Assembly: GCF_002744735.1 (NCBI RefSeq)
Contig: NZ_KZ319340.1
Span: forward strand, 715,030-779,029
Length of the DNA: 64,000 nt
Direction: 5' to 3'
From: Marinobacter guineae
GTDB taxonomy: Bacteria; Pseudomonadota; Gammaproteobacteria; Pseudomonadales; Oleiphilaceae
Under the pieces are notes generated by a model that did no database searches, had not been told where the DNA came from, and saw only the letters and a list, made by a program, of their open reading frames with translations. The translations under genes were made by a program, and so were the position numbers. Shown here piece after piece: positions 612 to 27,280 of this stretch; the stretch's first letter is position 1, and each line of letters opens with the position of its first letter.

Positions 612-629
612 AGTTCTATAGATAGAACT
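612..629. promoter_or_regulatory. Palindromic operator candidate before the peroxiredoxin gene
   Basis: Perfect inverted repeat AGTTCTAT-AG-ATAGAACT, which can also be read as GTTCTA-N4-TAGAAC. It is centred about 100 bases before the peroxiredoxin start. Closely related palindromes with the same 4-base spacer lie at 1424-1439 (rhodanese) and 5026-5041 (SQR). A weak -35-like TTGCAT begins 4 bases after the repeat. The binding protein is unknown. The TT-N-TA / 4-base spacer layout recalls CRP/FNR-type sites, but that is inference. Confidence 0.55.
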
Positions 630-720
630 ATATTGCATAACCTGAGACTGAAGGGTTATTGTGATTTCGACATGACGAGGCGCCCAGCCTCCAGAAGCAA
701 AACCCGACAGGAGATTCACC

Positions 721-1347
721 ATGAGTTTAAGACTTGGCGATACCGCACCGGACTTTACCATCGACAGCACCGCCGGCCAGATCAACTTTCACGACTGGGC
801 GGGGGATTCCTGGGTATTCTTCTTCAGCCACCCGGCCGATTTCACACCGGTCTGCACCACTGAAATGGGCCGTACTGCCCAGCTTGCGAAGGAGTTCTCG
901 GCCCGCAACGTGAAGCCGCTGGGTTTGTCCACAGACACCGTTGAAGAGCACGTCAAGTGGATTGAAGACGTCAACGATACCCAGAACTGTGACCTGCAGT
1001 TCCCGATCGTTGCCGACGCGGACCACAAGGTGGCTGAGCTGTATGAAATGATCCATGCGGGTGAAAGTGAAACCGCCGCGGTACGCAGCGTGTTCATTAT
1101 CGATCCGAACAAGAAAATCCGTCTGACCATGACCTACCCGATGGCGGTGGGCCGGAATTTCGATGAGATTCTGCGAGTGATTGATGCGCTCCAGACCAGC
1201 GACGCGAACAACTGTGCCCTGCCTGCTGACTGGCGCAAGGGTGATGATGTGATCATTCCGCCCTCCATCTCCAACGAGGAAGCCAAGGGCCTGTTCCCGA
1301 ATGGCTGGAATGAGATCCGTCCTTACCTTCGCACCACCAAGCTTTAA
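721..1347 (+). CDS. 1-Cys peroxiredoxin (Prx6-type, AhpC/TSA family)
   Basis: The 208-residue protein should reduce peroxides in the cytoplasm through one peroxidatic cysteine. The catalytic PxxxTxxC loop is visible as PADFTPVC with Cys45, and an Arg-containing segment (VRSVFIID) lies in the thioredoxin fold. The long C-terminal extension (residues about 155-208, ending RPYLRTTKL) is typical of the Prx6 subfamily, which usually runs 210-220 residues. The start at 721 has AGGAG about 7 bases upstream. The gene stands alone between hairpins, and the palindrome upstream links it to the following sulfur genes. The other cysteine (NNCALP) is not in a resolving-Cys context. Confidence 0.93.
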   Translation: MSLRLGDTAPDFTIDSTAGQINFHDWAGDSWVFFFSHPADFTPVCTTEMGRTAQLAKEFSARNVKPLGLSTDTVEEHVKWIEDVNDTQNCDLQFPIVADADHKVAELYEMIHAGESETAAVRSVFIIDPNKKIRLTMTYPMAVGRNFDEILRVIDALQTSDANNCALPADWRKGDDVIIPPSISNEEAKGLFPNGWNEIRPYLRTTKL

Positions 1348-1364
1348 TCTGGTTCGCGGATAAC

Positions 1365-1399
1365 AAAGGGTGTTTGCCAGCCGGCAGGCACCCCTTTCC
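1365..1399 (+). terminator. Imperfect terminator-like hairpin after peroxiredoxin
   Basis: AAAGGGTG/CACCCCTTT-type arms (about 1365-1378 and 1383-1397) enclose a 4-base loop, with one G-U pair and a short bulge. Only a weak T-run follows. Confidence 0.4.
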
Positions 1400-1423
1400 G
1401 CTTTGATCCCGGTCAAGACAGAA

Positions 1424-1439
1424 GTTATAGGCTTATAAC
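1424..1439. promoter_or_regulatory. Palindromic operator candidate before the rhodanese/OTR genes
   Basis: Perfect palindrome GTTATA-GGCT-TATAAC, centred 86 bases before the rhodanese start. A possible -35 (TTGAGG, 1445-1450) and -10 (TATGCT, 1469-1474, 18-base spacer) follow directly, which would put the palindrome just upstream of -35, a position used by activators. It shares the TTMTA-N4-TAKAA pattern with the sites at 612-629 and 5026-5041. Confidence 0.5.
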
Positions 1440-1517
1440 AGTACTTGAGGGGCCCGACACCGCAGGGGTATGCTCAAGAAACAGTCGGGGGAAGTCTGAT
1501 TCCAGGAGGAAACGACG

Positions 1518-2063
1518 ATGAAACATCTAGTATTCGGTTTTTTAATTGCATTCGCTCTCAGCTTCAACACCCAAGCCGAGGATGCCCTCTCTCTTACCCC
1601 CCAGCAGACCTATGACATGGTTCAGGAACAGGGCGATGAGATCCTTTTTGTCGATGTCCGCGATCCGGTGGAGATCATGTTCATCGGCTACACAGACGCA
1701 ATCGACAAAAACATCCCGTTCAAACTGGTGGATCGCTCTGAGTTTCTTGCCGACAAGGGCCGGTTCGCCATGAACACCAATCCGGATTTCGCGGCAGACG
1801 TGGAAAAAGCCCTGAAGGAAAAAGGCCTCAACAAAGACGCACTGATCATTACCATGTGCCGTTCGGGCTCCACCCGGGGCAAGCCCAGTGCCGAATACCT
1901 GCTGGAGCGGGGCTTTACCAATGTGAAATACATTGATAACGGCTTTCAGGGCGGTGGAGCCAAAGACGGCAAGAAAAAGGGCATGAGGATCGTCAGTGGC
2001 TGGCAGAACGACGGGCTGCCTTGGTCAATGACCCTGAACCCGGAAAAAATCTATCGTCCTTAA
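1518..2063 (+). CDS. Periplasmic rhodanese-domain sulfurtransferase
   Basis: The 181-residue protein has a Sec signal peptide (about residues 1-20, ending NTQA) and a single rhodanese domain. The active-site loop reads MCRSGSTRG with Cys114. The family moves sulfane sulfur from thiosulfate, persulfides or polysulfide to an acceptor through a Cys-persulfide. The start has a strong AGGAGG about 7 bases upstream. The octaheme cytochrome gene follows after 97 bases on the same strand without an evident terminator, so the two are probably co-transcribed. In this setting it probably handles sulfane sulfur in the periplasm next to the OTR-like cytochrome. The true substrate cannot be read from the sequence. 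Confidence 0.9.
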   Translation: MKHLVFGFLIAFALSFNTQAEDALSLTPQQTYDMVQEQGDEILFVDVRDPVEIMFIGYTDAIDKNIPFKLVDRSEFLADKGRFAMNTNPDFAADVEKALKEKGLNKDALIITMCRSGSTRGKPSAEYLLERGFTNVKYIDNGFQGGGAKDGKKKGMRIVSGWQNDGLPWSMTLNPEKIYRP

Positions 2064-2160
2064 CCCCGGACTATACTGATTTTCAGCCTTGATGTTGCAG
2101 TAGCAGGGAGTTTATCGGCAGTTCTGATGATTCCGAATCCGGGATCGGGGAGCGTAGAAC

Positions 2161-3780
2161 ATGGAAAGATCAGCAAGGGACCGTCTGCTTGGTCGTTTTG
2201 GCAGGCGCGCTGCGAATATTGCACTGGCCGGGGCATTAATCTGCTCCGGCTTTGCTGTTTCTGGTGCCGAGCGCCCACCCGCCACAGCCGATCACAGCAA
2301 GTTCGAGGTGCTTGAGGGCCCCTTTGACAACGCACAGGAAGTCACGGAAGCCTGCCTGGGATGCCATACCGAAGCCGGCGAACAGATCCGCGCAACCACT
2401 CACTGGACCTGGACCTACGAGCACCCGGAAACCGGGCAGACCCTTGGCAAAAGCAAGGTCATTAACAGCTTCTGTGGTATGGCGATTACCAATGAAGCGC
2501 GCTGCACCTCCTGCCACGTTGGCTATGGCTGGGAAGACATGAAGCAGCCACCGCCCACCGCAGACAACGCTGTCGATTGCCTGGTGTGCCACGACACCAC
2601 CGGCGAATACTGGAAGTTTCCCACCCTGGCCGGTCATCCCACCTACATGCCCCGGGAATGGCCCAAAGGCAGCGGCAAGATGGTTCAACCGCCAGATCTT
2701 GAGTCCATCGCACAAAATGTCGGCGCCAGTGGCCGGGCCAACTGCGGCAGTTGCCATTTCTACGGTGGCGGCGGTGACGGGGTAAAGCACGGCGATCTGG
2801 ACTCCTCCCTGGTCGATCCACCACGGTCACTGGACGTGCACATGTCGCCGGACGGCCTGAACTTCGGTTGTGCCGATTGCCATACCAGCTGGGGCCATCA
2901 GGTGTCCGGAAGTCGCTACCAGGTGAACGCCAAAGACACCCTGGGCATTGATGTGCCGGGGCACACCGATTTCAGCCGCGCCAGTTGCGAATCCTGCCAT
3001 GGGGCTACGCCGCACCAGAAGCAAAAACTCAACGACCATGTCGACACCCTCGCCTGCCAGACCTGCCATGTGCCGGCATTCGCCCGGGGCGGCGTCCCCA
3101 CTAAAATCTGGTGGGACTGGTCAACCGCCGGCAGGCTGGATGAAAACGGAGAGCCGATCACCGAATACGATGACAGCGGCCACCCCAGCTACATGAGTGA
3201 GAAAGGGGACTTCCGCCACGGAGAGAATGTGGTGCCCAGCTATGCCTGGTTCGATGGCACGGTTAAATACACCCTTGTGGATGAAAAACTGGACGTGGAC
3301 CATCCACCTGTTGAAATCAACCGGGTTGAAGGCGGCCCGGACGACCCGGGGTCCCGCATCTGGCCGTTCAAGGTCATGCGCGGTAAACAGCCCTATGACA
3401 CCGAACTGGAAACCTTGCTGGCCACCCATGTGTTTGGTGCCGACGATACGTCATTGTGGAGCAACTTCAGCTGGCCGAAAGCCCTTCAGGCGGGCAGCGA
3501 GATGTCCGGCATGCCGTTCAGTGGCAGTTACGACTTTATCGAAACCACCATGCACTGGCCTATTACCCACATGGTGCCTCCGGCCGAGCAGGCGCTGGGT
3601 TGCGCTTCCTGCCATGCCAGTGAAAGCCGGCTGGCCGGAATTGCCGGGATCTACATGCCGGGGCACAACGGCAACATCTGGCTGGATCGCATCGGCTGGC
3701 TGCTGGTGGCACTGACCCTGGTGGGCGTAGTACTTCATGGCGTGGCGCGAATTCTGATCAAAGGGAGGAAGCGGTCATGA
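2161..3780 (+). CDS. Octaheme c-type cytochrome, tetrathionate-reductase (OTR) family
   Basis: The 539-residue protein has an N-terminal signal segment (about residues 18-36) and exactly eight CxxCH haem-binding motifs, at Cys65, 115, 140, 195, 237, 276, 299 and 481. A C-terminal membrane helix (about 512-533) is followed by a basic tail. Eight haems with the long gap before the last motif match the octaheme tetrathionate reductase family. Members characterised in Shewanella reduce tetrathionate, nitrite and hydroxylamine in vitro, and their physiological role is debated. The stop overlaps the next start (ATGA) for a cytochrome b, a likely quinol partner. The membrane anchor suggests direct coupling to that subunit. 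The direction of electron flow (reduction or oxidation) is not determined. Confidence 0.9.
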   Translation: MERSARDRLLGRFGRRAANIALAGALICSGFAVSGAERPPATADHSKFEVLEGPFDNAQEVTEACLGCHTEAGEQIRATTHWTWTYEHPETGQTLGKSKVINSFCGMAITNEARCTSCHVGYGWEDMKQPPPTADNAVDCLVCHDTTGEYWKFPTLAGHPTYMPREWPKGSGKMVQPPDLESIAQNVGASGRANCGSCHFYGGGGDGVKHGDLDSSLVDPPRSLDVHMSPDGLNFGCADCHTSWGHQVSGSRYQVNAKDTLGIDVPGHTDFSRASCESCHGATPHQKQKLNDHVDTLACQTCHVPAFARGGVPTKIWWDWSTAGRLDENGEPITEYDDSGHPSYMSEKGDFRHGENVVPSYAWFDGTVKYTLVDEKLDVDHPPVEINRVEGGPDDPGSRIWPFKVMRGKQPYDTELETLLATHVFGADDTSLWSNFSWPKALQAGSEMSGMPFSGSYDFIETTMHWPITHMVPPAEQALGCASCHASESRLAGIAGIYMPGHNGNIWLDRIGWLLVALTLVGVVLHGVARILIKGRKRS

Positions 3781-4379
3781 GCCGGGTAATGATCTACAAA
3801 CGTTTCGAGCGTTTCTGGCATTGGTTCCAGGCGCTGCTGATCTTCGCATTGCTGTTTACCGGCTTCGAGATCCACGGCAGTTATTCGGTACTCGGCTTCG
3901 GTGATGCTGCCCGGCTACATACCCTGGCTGCCTGGGCATTGATCGTCCTGTGGCTGTTTGCCATTTTCTGGCACATTACCACTGGCGAATGGCGCCAATA
4001 CATCCCGACCAGGAACGGGCTGTTTCCAGTCATCCGTTACTACCTCATCGGTACATTTACCGGCGCCGAGCACCCGTACCGAAAAACCACCCGGGCCAAG
4101 CACAACCCTCTGCAGCGGCTCGCCTATCTGTTTTTCAAGCTGATGATTACACCTGTGATCTGGCTTACCGGGTTGCTCTACCTGTTCTATAACGACTGGC
4201 CGGCAACGCTTTCCGGAGCGCTGGAACTGGAAACGGTAGCCCTCGTCCACACGGCAGCAGCCTTTGCCATGCTCATTTTCATCATTGCCCATGTCTACAT
4301 GGCAACCATGGGCGCAAAGGTGACCAGCCTGATCAAACCCATGGTTACCGGTTACGAAGACCTCGAAGACACCCGCTAA
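3777..4379 (+). CDS. Membrane cytochrome b (b561/thiosulfate-reductase cytochrome b type)
   Basis: The 200-residue protein has about four hydrophobic helices and His residues placed as haem b ligands (HWFQALL near the N-terminus, RLHTLAAW, FWHITTGEW and IIAHVYMAT near the C-terminus). This is the arrangement of di-haem cytochrome b subunits that pass electrons between the quinone pool and periplasmic c-type cytochromes. Translation is coupled to the octaheme cytochrome by a 4-base overlap. The pair probably forms a quinone-linked membrane complex. The exact subfamily is uncertain. Confidence 0.88.
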   Translation: MSRVMIYKRFERFWHWFQALLIFALLFTGFEIHGSYSVLGFGDAARLHTLAAWALIVLWLFAIFWHITTGEWRQYIPTRNGLFPVIRYYLIGTFTGAEHPYRKTTRAKHNPLQRLAYLFFKLMITPVIWLTGLLYLFYNDWPATLSGALELETVALVHTAAAFAMLIFIIAHVYMATMGAKVTSLIKPMVTGYEDLEDTR

Positions 4380-4447
4380 TCCTCAATACAGATCGCCCGG
4401 CGTCGCACGGCCTGGGCGGTCTTGCCGACCGCCTCAGGCCTGCATAC

Positions 4448-4891
4448 TCAGAATGTGAACGTGCGCATCTTCGGGTTCAGCATCTGTCCCGCCATCTCTG
4501 GCGGCATGGCAACACCAACGCCGTCAATCAGGTCATCCTTGCTGTACTCACTGTTGGGCAGGTACAGGGCACAGACTTTGGCCTCACCACCCTGCTTTAG
4601 CAGGCCGCGAAGCATCTGGCCAGGGGTGACATCCTTCGGCTTGAGGGCCGGGGCTTCATAGGATTTCAGGGCCAGATCACCAGCCTTGTCACATAGCAGT
4701 ACATTCACCTTGGCCCCTTGCTGAGCCATGGTATTGGAGAGCACCATCGCCATACCCTGGGTTTGCAGGGAATCGCTGGACAGGATCACCAGTACTTCTT
4801 CAATGGCACCCTTATGGTTATCGGCATGCACACCGAAAGGCGCAAGCGCGAGCAATGCGGCAACAACCATGGCCTTGAAAGATTTGATCAT
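4448..4891 (-). CDS. Secreted DsrE/DsrF-like sulfur-carrier protein
   Basis: The 147-residue protein has a signal peptide (about residues 1-23, ending GVHA) followed by a DsrE-like fold. Two Cys sit in strand contexts, VNVLLCDKAG and AKVCALYLP. DsrE-family proteins carry sulfur on a conserved Cys or assist sulfur transfer, and exported versions occur beside sulfide-oxidation genes. The start has AAGGAGA upstream. The gene diverges from the SQR gene across 223 bases. It may accept sulfane sulfur produced by SQR or the rhodanese. That role is inferred from context. Confidence 0.85.
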   Translation of the reverse strand: MIKSFKAMVVAALLALAPFGVHADNHKGAIEEVLVILSSDSLQTQGMAMVLSNTMAQQGAKVNVLLCDKAGDLALKSYEAPALKPKDVTPGQMLRGLLKQGGEAKVCALYLPNSEYSKDDLIDGVGVAMPPEMAGQMLNPKMRTFTF

Positions 4892-5025
4892 GGGAAAATC
4901 TCCTTTTTCAGTTGATCGATAAACTACACATCTAAATTACTCGGCTTCAGAACATCCTTCAGTGACAAAGTCACTTTCGATTTTATGCCTGCGACAAAGA
5001 GGCTCCACCTGGCATATTCGTAAAT

Positions 5026-5041
5026 ATTCTAACGATAGAAC
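5026..5041. promoter_or_regulatory. Palindromic operator candidate before the SQR gene
   Basis: ATTCTA-ACGA-TAGAAC with perfect 5-bp arms (5027-5031 and 5036-5040) and a 4-base spacer, centred about 81 bases before the SQR start. It matches the sites before the peroxiredoxin and rhodanese genes. It lies in the divergent region between dsrE-like (minus) and sqr (plus), so it could act on both. No good -10/-35 pair could be assigned. Confidence 0.5.
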
Positions 5042-5114
5042 CTTTTGTTTGGTAGGCTTTGATATATCTCAAGCGAAAGCACGCACAGCAAAACAAAGAC
5101 AAGAGGTTCCAGGC

Positions 5115-6383
5115 ATGACCAGCACCACAACACCCAATGGCAGCGTCAAAACACATACGGTCGTAATCGTGGGCGGCGGGGCTGCCGGCATTTCGGTCGC
5201 TTCCAGCATTCGAAAACGTGACAGCAATATCGACATTGCCATCATCGAACCGGCCAACAGACATCACTATCAGCCTGGCTGGACCATGGTGGGAGGCGGT
5301 GTTTTCCGGCCGGAAGTCACCTCCAAACCCATGTCGCAAGTTATGCCCGGCTTCGTGTCCTGGTACCAGCAGGCGGTGACGTCGGTGGATCAAGAAATGA
5401 ATCAGGTCGTTCTGGAAGACGGCTCTTCGGTTGAATACAAGGCCCTGGTGCTAGCCCCGGGGCTGGAACTGAACTGGGCTGGTATTGAGGGGCTGGAGGA
5501 CGCCCTCGGCTCCAACGGCGTAACATCCAACTATCGCGAAGGCATGGCCAGCTACACCTGGGAGATGGTCCAGAGTCTGAAGAAGGGCCGCGCCCTGTTC
5601 AGCCAACCGCCGATGCCGATCAAGTGTGCCGGCGCACCCCAGAAGGCCATGTACCTGTCGGCGGATTACTGGCTCAGGCATGGTGTGCTGAACAACCTGG
5701 ACATCCAGTTCCATAACGCCGGGGCCGTTCTGTTTGGCGTGCCGGATTATGTACCGGCTCTTGAGGCCTATATCCAGAAATACGGCATTGATCTGAACTT
5801 CCAGAGCACTCTGGTTGCGGTAAACGGCCCCTCGAAAACCGCTGTCTTCCGGACAACAGACGGTGACGGCAACAGCCAGGACCGCGAAGTCAGTTTCGAT
5901 ATGCTGCATGCAGTGCCACCCCAGCGGGCTCCCCACTTCATCCGGGAATCTGCCCTGGCCAACGAGGGCGGATGGCTGGATCTCGAAGATGACACCCTTC
6001 GCCACAAGACCCACACCAACATCTTTGGTCTTGGCGATGTCAGTGGCACGGGAAATGCCAAAACCGCCGCCGCGGTTCGCAAACAGGCGCCGGTAGTGGC
6101 CGAAAACCTGGTTGCCAGCCTGCACAACCAACCTCTGCGGGCCGCCTATCTTGGCTATGGCTCCTGCCCTCTCACGGTGGAAAACGGCAAGATCGTATTG
6201 GCGGAGTTCGGCTACGGCGGCGTGCTACAGCCGAGTTTCCCGAAATGGATCAACGATGGCACCAAGGCAACCAGGGCCGCCTGGTACCTGAAAGCCAAAC
6301 AACTGCCCGCCCTTTACTGGCACGGCATGCTGAAAGGACACGAGTGGCTGGCTAAGCCGGCGCCCCGTTCAGGCGTAAACTGA
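5115..6383 (+). CDS. sqr: Sulfide:quinone oxidoreductase, type II (mitochondrial-like)
   Basis: The 422-residue FAD enzyme oxidises sulfide and passes electrons to quinone at the membrane, leaving sulfane sulfur. The N-terminal dinucleotide fold VIVGGGAAG is at about residues 17-25 and a second FAD segment, FGLGDVSGTGNAK, at about 304-316. Cys171 (KCAGAPQKAMYL) and Cys351 (GYGSCPLT) are the two redox cysteines, and the third Cys of type I enzymes is absent, as in type II SQR. The frame stays open upstream to 4962, but the ATG at 5115 has AGAGG upstream and begins where family alignment expects. With the rhodanese, DsrE-like protein and OTR-like cytochrome, it forms a plausible sulfide/sulfane pathway. 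Confidence 0.93.
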   Translation: MTSTTTPNGSVKTHTVVIVGGGAAGISVASSIRKRDSNIDIAIIEPANRHHYQPGWTMVGGGVFRPEVTSKPMSQVMPGFVSWYQQAVTSVDQEMNQVVLEDGSSVEYKALVLAPGLELNWAGIEGLEDALGSNGVTSNYREGMASYTWEMVQSLKKGRALFSQPPMPIKCAGAPQKAMYLSADYWLRHGVLNNLDIQFHNAGAVLFGVPDYVPALEAYIQKYGIDLNFQSTLVAVNGPSKTAVFRTTDGDGNSQDREVSFDMLHAVPPQRAPHFIRESALANEGGWLDLEDDTLRHKTHTNIFGLGDVSGTGNAKTAAAVRKQAPVVAENLVASLHNQPLRAAYLGYGSCPLTVENGKIVLAEFGYGGVLQPSFPKWINDGTKATRAAWYLKAKQLPALYWHGMLKGHEWLAKPAPRSGVN

Positions 6384-23309: not shown

Positions 23310-25574
23310 CTAAACGGAGCTTTTCGGGAACCACCAGCGCGGCAAAAGCCGGTTGATCCCCGGCTGTAGAAACCGATCATCAATCAGCCAGATTACGCCC
23401 TCGTCCTCCGGCGTACGGATAACGCGCCCGGCGGCCTGGGCCACTTTCTGCAGGCCGGGAATCAGGTAGGTGTACTCGTAGCCGGCACCGAAACGCTGCT
23501 CGAGGCGGGCCTTCAGAATTTCATGCCAGGCGTCGAACGGTGGCAGACCAAGGGTGGCGACGAAGGCGCCGATCAATTGATCTCCCGGCAGGTCAATGCC
23601 TTCGCTGAACACGCCACCGAGCACCGCGAATGCGACACTGCCCTCTGATTCTTTGAAACCCGCGAGAAACGCTGCCCTCTGCTGGGGTGACATACCCGGT
23701 TGCTGGGCCCGCTGGGGAACATCCGGCGCTTCACGGGCCAGCACGTCACTGACCTGCCTGGCGTATTTGAAGCTGCTGAAAAACGCCAGGTAGTGCCCGG
23801 GCCTATCGCGAAACTGGCGGGCAATAAGGTCGGCGATCGGCTTCAGCGAGGCTTCCCGGTGAACCTGACGGGTACTGACGCCTGGAGTGAAGTGTACCTG
23901 CAACTGGTCGGCACTGAACGGGCTGGGCAGTGAGGTGAAGCGCGAGTCCTCCGGAAGGCCCAACAGATCCCGATAGTAGACACCCGGGCTCAGGGTGGCG
24001 GAAAACAGCAGCACCGAGTTCGCGGCTTCAAACCGTTCCCGTAAAAAATCCGCCGGTATCAGGTTCTGGATGGTCAGACTGGCGCGGCCCCGACCGGCCC
24101 TCTGGAACTCGCACAGGGAGTGGTCACCGAAGGAGTCTGCGAGTTTCATAAAAGCCACACTTTCAAACAGTAGTTCCTGCAAAGCCAGATCCGGCGGATT
24201 ATCGGCCAGGTAATCGGAAAGACTGGAGACCATGGCTTGCAGGGCGCCGAGCAACTGGGCGGGCAGGCTCTCCAGAAAGACCGGGGCGTCATCCTCCCTC
24301 TGATGATCCCGGATCAGGCTCTGCCAGGCCCGGGCCGTGCGGTCAATTGCCGACTTCAACGGCTTGGGAGCCGCTTTTTTCAGCCTTAGCAATCGTTGCT
24401 GGTCCAGCCGCACCGAATACATGCCCCGGCCCCGGTCCACCAGGTTGTGGGCTTCGTCCACCAGAACGCTGGCCTTCCAGTTATTCTGGCGAATCAGACC
24501 GTGGAGCAGGGCGGATTGGTCGAACAGCCGATTCACGTCGCCGACCACCACATCACTCCAGCGGGCCATTTCCTGGGCCAGGAAATAGGGGCAAATGTCA
24601 TGACCCGCGGCGATCTTCGCCAATATTGCCTTATCAAGGGTACTTTCGGTCTGGGCGGCTTCAGCCCGGGCATCCGGCAGGCGGTCGAAAAAGCCTTCGG
24701 CGAGGGGGCAGGAGTCACCATGACAGGCCTTGTCCGGATGTTCACAGGCGTCGTCTTTCGACACCAGCTCCAGGGTTCTCAGGGGCCAGTGCGGCGCGAC
24801 CTGGGCCGAACGCAGGCGCGCCACCGCATCCATGGCAAGCTGGCGGGCGGTGTTGCGGCAGGTCAGGTAGAAGAGCCGGTCCTGCTGTGCCGCCGGCATG
24901 GCCATCAGGGCGGGAAACAGGGTACCGAGGGTTTTGCCCAGACCGGTCGGGGCCTCAAGCAGCAGGGTGCCGGACTTCACCGAGTTCTTGTAGACGGTCT
25001 CCGCGAGCTGCCGCTGCCTGGGGCGGAACGCCGGGAAGGGAAACGTCAGCCCGGAAAGCAGGGCATCGCGCTGCTCCCGGTGGTGTTCTTCCTGTTCAGC
25101 CCAATCCTTGTAAAGGCCGCACAGAGCTTCCAGCTCCTGCCAGAGCTCGTCCGCGCTGGCGTTTTCAACAACCGGCGTTTCCCGGTCCTTGCTGGCGTTG
25201 TAATAGATCAGCGCCAGTTCCAGTTTTTTCCGGTTTTCCTGGCGGCACAGCAGCGCGCCGTAGGCCCTCAGCTGGGCCCGATGGAGCGACCGTTGATGTT
25301 CGCGGATGCGGGACAGATCGCCCCGGTGAGTCTTGATCTCTTCCAGTCGTCCACGGTGCGGGTTATAGACATCCGCACGCCCGGAAAGCTCTAATCCCAG
25401 ACATTCTCCGGTAAGTGAGTACTCGCTTATATAACCGTAACCGCGCCGGGACTGGATTGCCTGGTGGCCGGCAATGCCCTCCTCGGCACTGGGCGCCGGG
25501 GTGTAGCGGAAATCCAGATCGCCCTGGCGGGCAGCAAACTCGCAGAGGGTGCGGATGGCAACCTTCACCGTCAT
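23310..25574 (-). CDS. Rad3/DinG-like Fe-S DNA helicase with N-terminal nuclease-like segment
   Basis: The 754-residue superfamily 2 helicase carries Walker A APTGLGKT at about 225 and the DEAH box VDEAHN. Four Cys for an Fe-S cluster are visible (three in CEHPDKACHGDSC, one in DICPYF), as in XPD/DinG 5'-3' helicases. The C-terminal motif VAQAAGRVIRTPEDEG is the helicase motif VI. The first 120 residues contain RADVYN, LEEIKTHRGD and HRAQLRAYGALL, matching the D-ExK-Q pattern of PD-(D/E)xK nucleases. Its ATG overlaps the stop of the VRR-NUC gene (ATGA), so the two are probably partners in DNA repair. Confidence 0.9.
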   Translation of the reverse strand: MTVKVAIRTLCEFAARQGDLDFRYTPAPSAEEGIAGHQAIQSRRGYGYISEYSLTGECLGLELSGRADVYNPHRGRLEEIKTHRGDLSRIREHQRSLHRAQLRAYGALLCRQENRKKLELALIYYNASKDRETPVVENASADELWQELEALCGLYKDWAEQEEHHREQRDALLSGLTFPFPAFRPRQRQLAETVYKNSVKSGTLLLEAPTGLGKTLGTLFPALMAMPAAQQDRLFYLTCRNTARQLAMDAVARLRSAQVAPHWPLRTLELVSKDDACEHPDKACHGDSCPLAEGFFDRLPDARAEAAQTESTLDKAILAKIAAGHDICPYFLAQEMARWSDVVVGDVNRLFDQSALLHGLIRQNNWKASVLVDEAHNLVDRGRGMYSVRLDQQRLLRLKKAAPKPLKSAIDRTARAWQSLIRDHQREDDAPVFLESLPAQLLGALQAMVSSLSDYLADNPPDLALQELLFESVAFMKLADSFGDHSLCEFQRAGRGRASLTIQNLIPADFLRERFEAANSVLLFSATLSPGVYYRDLLGLPEDSRFTSLPSPFSADQLQVHFTPGVSTRQVHREASLKPIADLIARQFRDRPGHYLAFFSSFKYARQVSDVLAREAPDVPQRAQQPGMSPQQRAAFLAGFKESEGSVAFAVLGGVFSEGIDLPGDQLIGAFVATLGLPPFDAWHEILKARLEQRFGAGYEYTYLIPGLQKVAQAAGRVIRTPEDEGVIWLIDDRFLQPGINRLLPRWWFPKSSV

Positions 25575-27280
25575 TCCGGCACTCCAGTTTCCTGCCAGCG
25601 TACGTAACAGACACTGGCTGGAATCCCCGCACCGGCGAAAAACTCAAGCCAGCGGATCTGGTGGTCCTGCAACCGATCACCCGGACCTTTCACTTCGATC
25701 ATTTCGTACTGGCGATCAGGCCCTGTGTTGCCAGGGTGAAACCGGATCAAATCCGGAAAACCGCTGCGGTGTTCCCGGATATTCAACAGCAGGCGACGGA
25801 ACAGTCGCTCCAGATCCGCCGGTGGAATACAATCCAGCGCCAGGCTCAACAGTTCCTCGGTGAGTACCGGCCAGATCACGAAGGGGTTGGTGGTACCCTG
25901 TTTGGCCCGGTAATTGTCCAGGATGCGCTCCCGGTAGCTGTTATCCTGCAGGCAGGCGAAACACCGGTCGAACGACGCCTGGCGACGGGCCACGAAATCT
26001 TCCCGGGTCAGATCCGCCGGCCCCACGTGAAACGGATGGAAGAAGGCACCCGGCACGGGTTCAAAGATAGTCTGCCAGCACAACAGCCCGAATAAGCCAT
26101 TAATGAGGGTGTTCTCCACATAGAACACCGGCGAATCGTCCCGCCACAGATGCTGTTGCGCGGCGAATTCCACCGAGCCCAGCGCCGGTTTTGGCAGGGT
26201 CAGGGTGAATTCCCGGATAGGCGGAGGAGTAAGCGCCGGCGGAGGTCCCTCACCCAGCTTTGCGGCAAGGCGTTTCAGAATGCGTGCCAGCCCCTGGGCC
26301 TCGGCGTCGCTCAGGTCCTGGGTTTGCCACCGCGAGGCGATGGCCCAGGCTTCCCGGTGACGTTTCATCCGCTCCAGCAACCGGAGCTGCTTCAGCCGCG
26401 CTTCCCGGTGGCCACTGGTGCCGAATGCCTGCAGGGCCAGCTCCCGCTCCCCCTGCCGTTCCGCTTGCCGGCCCAACTCCAGCAACAGCCGGTCCCGGCG
26501 GCTGGCCAGCCAGGCGTTGTCCGACGGCGCAGGCACCTCTGGCCAGACCTCACGGGCGGGCACGCCCTCGTCCAGCCATTCCCGGCACTGGTGCATGGTC
26601 AGGTAGATGTCCACCTCCGAACGATGCTGGAACGCCCTGGAATCCGGGGTGAATGTCACCGGCTCGTAACGTTGATGGCCCAGTTCCACCAGAACGAAAT
26701 CGGACCAGCTCTGGCGCAGGTTACCGAAGAACATCAACCGGACCCGGTCAAACAGCGCCATAGGATTGATGCAAACAACCGGTTGCACGTCCATCCCAAG
26801 CCAGTCCGCCAGCGACAGCGCATCGGGAAAAGATTGCTGCAATACCTCCAGCATTTGCCATTTCGGCAGGGTTTTTTGCCATCCCGCTTCCTGCAGCGCC
26901 GCCGCGAACACCGGACGTAATTCCCCCAGGGTATACAGACGAAACAACTGGTCGAGGGTGAGCAAAGGTTCCGCATCCAGCCAGTAGTCCGCCACCAGTT
27001 CTTCCAGCGCTTCGCTTTCCGGCACGCCGAGTTCCGGGTAGCGCAGTTTATCGGCACGAAACAGTTCACCCGTACGCATCACCATCCGGGTCAGCAGCGC
27101 CCGTGCCGGCAATGAAAGCGCCTGAAATGCTCTCAGCCGGTCCTGCTCCTCCGTGGTCAGCAAATCGGCGTGGTGATTCAACACCCAGCCAACCACTGTC
27201 TCCATGTTTTCGAGGTAATACAGCGGATTCTCGAGATCCGCCGTACCCGGTCTGGTGTCCATCGGACTCTGAAATGCCAT
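25571..27280 (-). CDS. VRR-NUC nuclease (FAN1-like)
   Basis: The 569-residue protein ends with a VRR-NUC domain. The motif IEVKGPGDRLQDHQIRWLEFFAGAG (about 530-555) holds the catalytic E-x-K and the Q of the PD-(D/E)xK fold, with the metal-binding Asp expected in FPDLIRFHPG before it. The N-terminal part (about 20-200) is helical and resembles the SAP/TPR-like parts of bacterial FAN1 proteins, which cut structured or cross-linked DNA. The frame opens at a TTG (27331), but the ATG at 27280 is preferred. It is first in an operon with the helicase. Confidence 0.9.
   Translation of the reverse strand: MAFQSPMDTRPGTADLENPLYYLENMETVVGWVLNHHADLLTTEEQDRLRAFQALSLPARALLTRMVMRTGELFRADKLRYPELGVPESEALEELVADYWLDAEPLLTLDQLFRLYTLGELRPVFAAALQEAGWQKTLPKWQMLEVLQQSFPDALSLADWLGMDVQPVVCINPMALFDRVRLMFFGNLRQSWSDFVLVELGHQRYEPVTFTPDSRAFQHRSEVDIYLTMHQCREWLDEGVPAREVWPEVPAPSDNAWLASRRDRLLLELGRQAERQGERELALQAFGTSGHREARLKQLRLLERMKRHREAWAIASRWQTQDLSDAEAQGLARILKRLAAKLGEGPPPALTPPPIREFTLTLPKPALGSVEFAAQQHLWRDDSPVFYVENTLINGLFGLLCWQTIFEPVPGAFFHPFHVGPADLTREDFVARRQASFDRCFACLQDNSYRERILDNYRAKQGTTNPFVIWPVLTEELLSLALDCIPPADLERLFRRLLLNIREHRSGFPDLIRFHPGNTGPDRQYEMIEVKGPGDRLQDHQIRWLEFFAGAGIPASVCYVRWQETGVPE

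Follow-up and report, generated by a model that had tools for sequence, protein, structure and literature searches.

What do the similar palindromes in front of three sulfur and thiol genes of Marinobacter guineae bind, and is it one and the same regulator? Marinobacter is a widespread marine heterotrophic genus, and many of its members carry sulfur-oxidation genes, the switching of which appears to be undescribed in the open-licence literature that we searched; nor did the open-licence papers searched contain a description of the palindrome. We analyzed a stretch of 64,000 nucleotides (the window), the rest of the genome, and the genomes of relatives. Our results make it highly probable that the palindromes are the operators of one dimeric factor controlling a regulon for the oxidation of sulfide, sulfane sulfur, and thiosulfate in Marinobacter.

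Three palindromes with a common spacer precede genes of one cluster

The cluster comprises the following genes.

721-1347, + strand, peroxiredoxin, prx (AhpC/TSA PF00578 and 1-cysPrx_C; profile matches)
1518-2063, + strand, rhodanese-domain periplasmic protein (PF00581; profile match)
2161-3780, + strand, octaheme c-type cytochrome of the tetrathionate reductase family, OTR (TIGR04315; profile match)
3777-4379, + strand, cytochrome b561-type membrane subunit (profile match)
4448-4891, - strand, small secreted protein, DsrE-like by eye (no Pfam or NCBIfam match)
5115-6383, + strand, sulfide:quinone oxidoreductase (SQR)-like flavoprotein (NF049943, E 2e-55, below the curated cut-off)

The earlier assignments of peroxiredoxin, rhodanese, and OTR hold, while that of SQR is weaker, with 188 bits against an NF049943 cut-off of 525. 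As previously stated, the cluster contains no recognizable regulator gene, and the same applies to the 10 kb to its left, judging the protein sequences by eye. The candidate operators, located by reading and pattern search, are as follows.

613-628, GTTCTATAGATAGAAC, GTTCTA-N4-TAGAAC, before the peroxiredoxin gene
1424-1439, GTTATAGGCTTATAAC, GTTATA-N4-TATAAC, before rhodanese-OTR-cytochrome b
5026-5041, ATTCTAACGATAGAAC, ATTCTA-N4-TAGAAC, before SQR

We found all three palindromes exactly where the earlier note had placed them. The arms are perfect at the first two sites and carry a single outer mismatch at the third. The architecture is indeed a common one: when spacers of 0 to 12 were tried with the same half-sites, the window gave matches at N4 alone, at these three places, and none with any other spacer. 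The exact pattern RTTMTA-N4-TAKAAY is likewise absent from the rest of the window. From palindrome center to start codon we measured 100.5, 86.5, and 81.5 bases, in agreement with the 81 to 100 bases reported. Allowing up to one mismatch, the window contains 8 strand-matches (four places) against 0.27 expected, a number reached by none of 100 shuffles of the window; the fourth place, at 26111 with one mismatch, lies inside a gene (25571-27280, minus strand). These data confirm that the palindrome observation is real.

In this genome, exact sites are restricted to sulfur promoters

A genome-wide search, proposed in the earlier note, detected exact RTTMTA-N4-TAKAAY sites at six places in the 4.46-Mb genome. 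All six stand before sulfur genes, namely, two peroxiredoxin genes, rhodanese/OTR, SQR, a persulfide dioxygenase, and the soxC/soxH divergon. Outside the window, the sites are the following.

C1:10795, exact, before a prx paralog
C1:17165, exact, before an ETHE1/Blh-type persulfide dioxygenase gene
C1:166685, exact, at the divergent pair soxC (TIGR04555)/soxH-like
C1:11607, one mismatch, before a second rhodanese/OTR operon
C2:424761, one mismatch, before a third dioxygenase-SulP operon

The remaining one-mismatch places examined in the genome were mostly intragenic, and none preceded a sulfur gene. The soxC gene at C1:166685 heads a sox operon, and the dioxygenases match the Blh model NF040641 across its dioxygenase part, with scores below its cut-off. 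The region C1:6000-17000 holds a second, paralogous prx-rhodanese-OTR-cytochrome b-dsrE cluster plus additional genes for SQR, dioxygenase, and SulP.

Among 124 Marinobacter genomes, we found 84 distinct exact sites. Forty-five of them lie at most 260 bp upstream of orthologs of sulfur genes (soxC/soxH, prx, rhodanese, SQR, dioxygenase, SorT, and SulP), 7 precede the gene of a small, functionally uncharacterized secreted protein, and 32 are located elsewhere, away from the listed sulfur genes. Because the genus-wide raw count of exact sites per genome did not exceed the count for the reversed pattern used as a control, which puts random occurrence at about 0.5 site per genome, the weight of the evidence rests on location and conservation and not on frequency. 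Thus, the search upheld the proposal in where the sites lie in this genome, but not in how many occur per genome across the genus. Outside the genus, the version with an AAGG spacer gave isolated matches near unrelated genes only (391 genomes of the order).

The palindrome arms are conserved in orthologous promoters

Promoter alignments demonstrated that the palindromes are kept across the genus, a check that had also been proposed. The identity of the prx arms was 0.91 in 11 orthologous promoters, compared with a background of 0.60, and no other segment of these promoters equaled them. At the rhodanese promoter, arm identity was 0.84, with the TTATAnGCTTAT core kept in 20 promoters and 2 of 150 segments conserved as strongly; at the SQR promoter it was 0.92, with TAACGATAGAAC kept in related promoters and 6 of 147 segments reaching the same level. 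The highest values were obtained for soxC (0.98) and soxH (0.97) against a background of 0.71-0.77, and there no segment matched the arms. Background identity over the five promoter sets was 0.55-0.77. Judged by these alignments, few blocks of the promoters are as conserved as the arms.

These results bear on the trivial explanation that all three palindromes arose by chance in AT-rich promoter DNA. The random occurrence given above would allow an odd site per genome; however, all exact genome sites precede sulfur genes, the palindromes are conserved in orthologous promoters, and the window matches occur at a spacer of 4 only. Conservation and location thus refute coincidence, to which we assign a negligible probability.

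Site position suggests repression at the sox promoters

We next compared the sites with promoter elements and boxes read from the sequence.

633-638 and 657-662, + strand, putative prx promoter, -35 TTGCAT and -10 TATTGT
1445-1450 and 1469-1474, + strand, putative rhodanese/OTR promoter, -35 TTGAGG and -10 TATGCT
1403-1416, ANR/FNR-like box TTGAT-N4-GTCAA, upstream of the rhodanese palindrome
5059-5072, ANR/FNR-like box TTGAT-N4-CTCAA, 26-39 bp downstream of the SQR palindrome center

In the predicted promoters of prx (TTGCAT-N18-TATTGT) and OTR (TTGAGG-N18-TATGCT), the palindrome is centered around -48 to -50, a short way upstream of the -35 element. Most prx orthologs keep the GGGTTATTGT block and a TTGGCT-like -35, and most rhodanese orthologs keep TTGA...gTATG. 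At soxC, the conserved TTGTAA-N17-TATAAA is of the sigma-70 type and would have the palindrome cover roughly +1 to +16, while at soxH the palindrome overlaps the predicted -10. This overlap suggests repressor action at both promoters, where a factor sitting over +1 to +16 or over the -10 would repress transcription. Both boxes listed above look like ANR boxes: ttTGA-N4-gTCAA is conserved in the rhodanese promoters, the OTR box lying a further 20 bp upstream of the palindrome, and TTTGA...ATCTCAAG is conserved in the SQR promoters.

Because the site does not keep one fixed position within the predicted promoters, repression alone is perhaps not the whole story. At prx and OTR, a factor bound just upstream of the -35 could block an upstream activator, and an ANR-like box flanks the OTR site. 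All five promoters would be accounted for by a repressor whose action includes shutting out an activator bound upstream; alternatively, the factor may be a dual regulator.

Activators of the sigma-54 type often bind perfectly palindromic sites, and one of the FisR type might use the palindromes as upstream activating sequences. A precedent is FisR of Cupriavidus, a sulfane-sulfur-responsive activator (PMC9774590). However, the conserved sigma-70 promoter at soxC overlaps the site, reading of the three window promoters revealed no -24/-12 element, and no sigma-54 activator stands next to a sulfur gene among those inspected. We therefore rejected FisR as the regulator and regard this reading as very improbable.

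The palindrome resembles the SqrR/YgaV operator, but no such repressor was found in the genome

The published site of SqrR (Rhodobacter capsulatus) and YgaV (Escherichia coli) is ATTC-N8-GAAT (PMC9774250). The Marinobacter palindrome, RTTM-N8-KAAY, shares its 16-base frame and comes close to it in the outer bases: the SQR site, ATTC-N8-GAAC, agrees at seven of the eight positions, and the other sites read RTTC or GTTA-N8-KAAY. It differs in its additional inner TA..TA and in the alternative GTTATA arm. The targets are also alike. SqrR/YgaV controls SQR and sulfide-responsive genes, BigR (Xylella, Agrobacterium, and Acinetobacter) controls a Blh-type persulfide dioxygenase, and the Marinobacter sites precede SQR and dioxygenases, both of which are targets in the SqrR/BigR/YgaV regulon. 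In contrast to BigR systems, the Marinobacter genome has no bigR, and the site-bearing set extends to sox, SQR, OTR, and peroxiredoxin. In other bacteria, sox genes are repressed in a sulfur-responsive manner by SoxR/sHdrR (Hyphomicrobium; ArsR family) and TTHA1953 (Thermus; CsoR family); the site of the latter, TACNNTACNNNNGTANNGTA, differs from the palindrome, and the genome encodes no CsoR (PF02583), which eliminated CsoR as a candidate.

The likeness would be explained if an ArsR repressor of the SqrR/BigR/YgaV type bound the sites and, through a di- or tetrasulfide bridge, released the DNA when sulfane sulfur rises. The shared frame, a regulon that equals that of SqrR, BigR, and SoxR in SQR, Blh-type dioxygenase, and sox, and the repressor-like position at soxC/soxH all agree with this. 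Searches of the complete genome with HTH_5 (PF01022) and HTH_20 (PF12840), however, found no stand-alone SqrR/BigR-type ArsR repressor with a cysteine pair; the matches were confined to fused ArsR proteins (with LMW-phosphatase, methyltransferase, or rhodanese) and some non-ArsR HTH proteins. The ArsR-rhodanese fusion was favored on account of an ATTCTA-N8-TAGAAT sequence in the intergenic region next to its gene, but at least 10 genomes that keep the sites lack the fusion (G005, G007, G011, G016, G017, G023, G042, G045, G056, and G058). On this evidence, an ArsR repressor of this type is already largely refuted and appears improbable.

The ATTCTA-N8-TAGAAT element lies where the fusion gene and a DsrE-like gene diverge (L039 5994-6107, about C1:1242000) and is likely the fusion's own operator.

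CRP/FNR-family proteins fit the spacing but not the half-site

The earlier note had also seen a hint of CRP/FNR sites in the four-base spacer. FNR/ANR boxes (TTGAT-N4-ATCAA) indeed share with the palindrome this spacer and a distance of about one helical turn between half-sites. A CRP/FNR-family protein binding 5-4-5 sites (TTMTA-N4-TAKAA) could activate prx, OTR, and SQR and repress sox; the prx and OTR sites lie upstream of the -35, the distance at SQR is class-II-like, and in one relative a site stands 37 bp before an FNR-like gene (L184). The half-site, however, is TTMTA and not TTGAT, the ANR-like boxes are separate elements in the same promoters, and the recognition helices of FNR type (E..SR) would predict TTGAY half-sites.

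The genome encodes eight Crp/Fnr proteins, of which we tested one, L033, the sole sulfur-linked member. It was first favored because its gene adjoins the sulfur cluster in one relative (L069) and because it has three conserved cysteines. However, three genomes that have retained the soxC/soxH site (G011, G016, and G045) lack L033, and the L033 gene itself carries GTGAC-N3-RTCAC instead of the RTTMTA palindrome. The hint thus failed for this protein, and we consider a CRP/FNR-family regulator rather unlikely. Overall, the published SqrR/YgaV site fits the palindrome better than a CRP/FNR site does, as far as sequence can tell.

A site next to its own regulator gene would be a further guide. In this genome, neither exact nor one-mismatch sites precede a recognizable autoregulated regulator, and the genus-wide search gave single, nonconserved cases only (an FNR-like gene in G467 and a two-component system beside pdo1 in G493). 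Going by gene content, the regulator is none of the sulfane-sulfur sensors testable here, that is, stand-alone ArsR, the ArsR-rhodanese fusion, CsoR, the FisR type, or Crp L033.

A second palindrome probably belongs to a Crp protein with three cysteines

A different palindrome is present between SQR and the divergent gene.

4962-4974, GTGACAAAGTCAC, GTGAC-AAA-GTCAC, before the dsrE-like gene, between it and SQR

The whole genome contains four exact matches to GTGAY-WWW-RTCAC (this one, C1:8799, C1:16115, and C3:162472), which lie before both dsrE-like paralogs, beside a second dioxygenase, and beside the gene of Crp protein L033. The C1:8799 site is located between the dioxygenase gene and a divergent gene, and the C3 site between the Crp gene (C3:161800-162420) and a divergent YgaP-like membrane gene. 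Of 30 relatives, 29 have GTGAC-N3-RTCAC next to the crp gene, and the arms of the palindrome have an identity of 0.98 in 20 dsrE promoters. Because of this conservation and autoregulation, the Crp protein is likely the regulator of the second palindrome. Of 30 orthologs, all keep its cysteines 74 and 80 and 29 keep cysteine 40, which suggests a thiol sensor.

A probable regulon for sulfur oxidation

The earlier note had read the palindromes as the mark of one regulator of a sulfide/persulfide/peroxide response. The shared cis-element, all exact genome sites, and the conserved promoters agree with this reading, from which we infer a single regulator. As the well-known sulfur-sensing repressors are not encoded in the genome, it would be a protein other than these, probably working like SqrR/BigR without being either. 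The factor would bind two RTTMTA half-sites one helical turn apart at every site and would sense persulfide or polysulfide, with repression in the absence of sulfane sulfur as its most likely mode. Its regulon would comprise SQR, persulfide dioxygenases, the soxC-headed sox operon, soxH, rhodanese-OTR-cytochrome b, peroxiredoxin, and the SulP transporter, and in relatives also the sulfite dehydrogenase SorT.

More tentatively, and with the balance slightly against it, we propose that a factor of a family new to sulfane-sulfur sensing has replaced SqrR/BigR at an SqrR-like operator of the sulfur-oxidation genes, while the three-cysteine Crp protein controls the dsrE-like genes through its own operator. 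Such a regulon would not need the usual SqrR/BigR/CsoR sensors. With the operator, membership in the regulon can be assigned gene by gene, and the sequence can serve as bait for the factor. The regulon also ties a peroxiredoxin and a cytochrome of the tetrathionate reductase family to sulfide and thiosulfate oxidation, which aids the assignment of functions to little-known genes.

Sites before other genes in relatives

In seven relatives (L122 9948-10328, L124, L125, L163, L185, L187, and L200), the gene of the small secreted protein starts about 16 bp after an RTTMTA palindrome. This protein is glycine/methionine-rich, has no Pfam match, and is a possible new member of the sulfur regulon. In four relatives (L047, L183, L203, and L205), GTTCTA-N4-TAGAAC is found about 103 bp before a gene resembling a pirin family member. 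In two further relatives (L057 and L206), the palindrome lies 21-36 bp ahead of the gene for the membrane-fusion component in an RND-type efflux operon, with a TusA-like gene nearby in L206.
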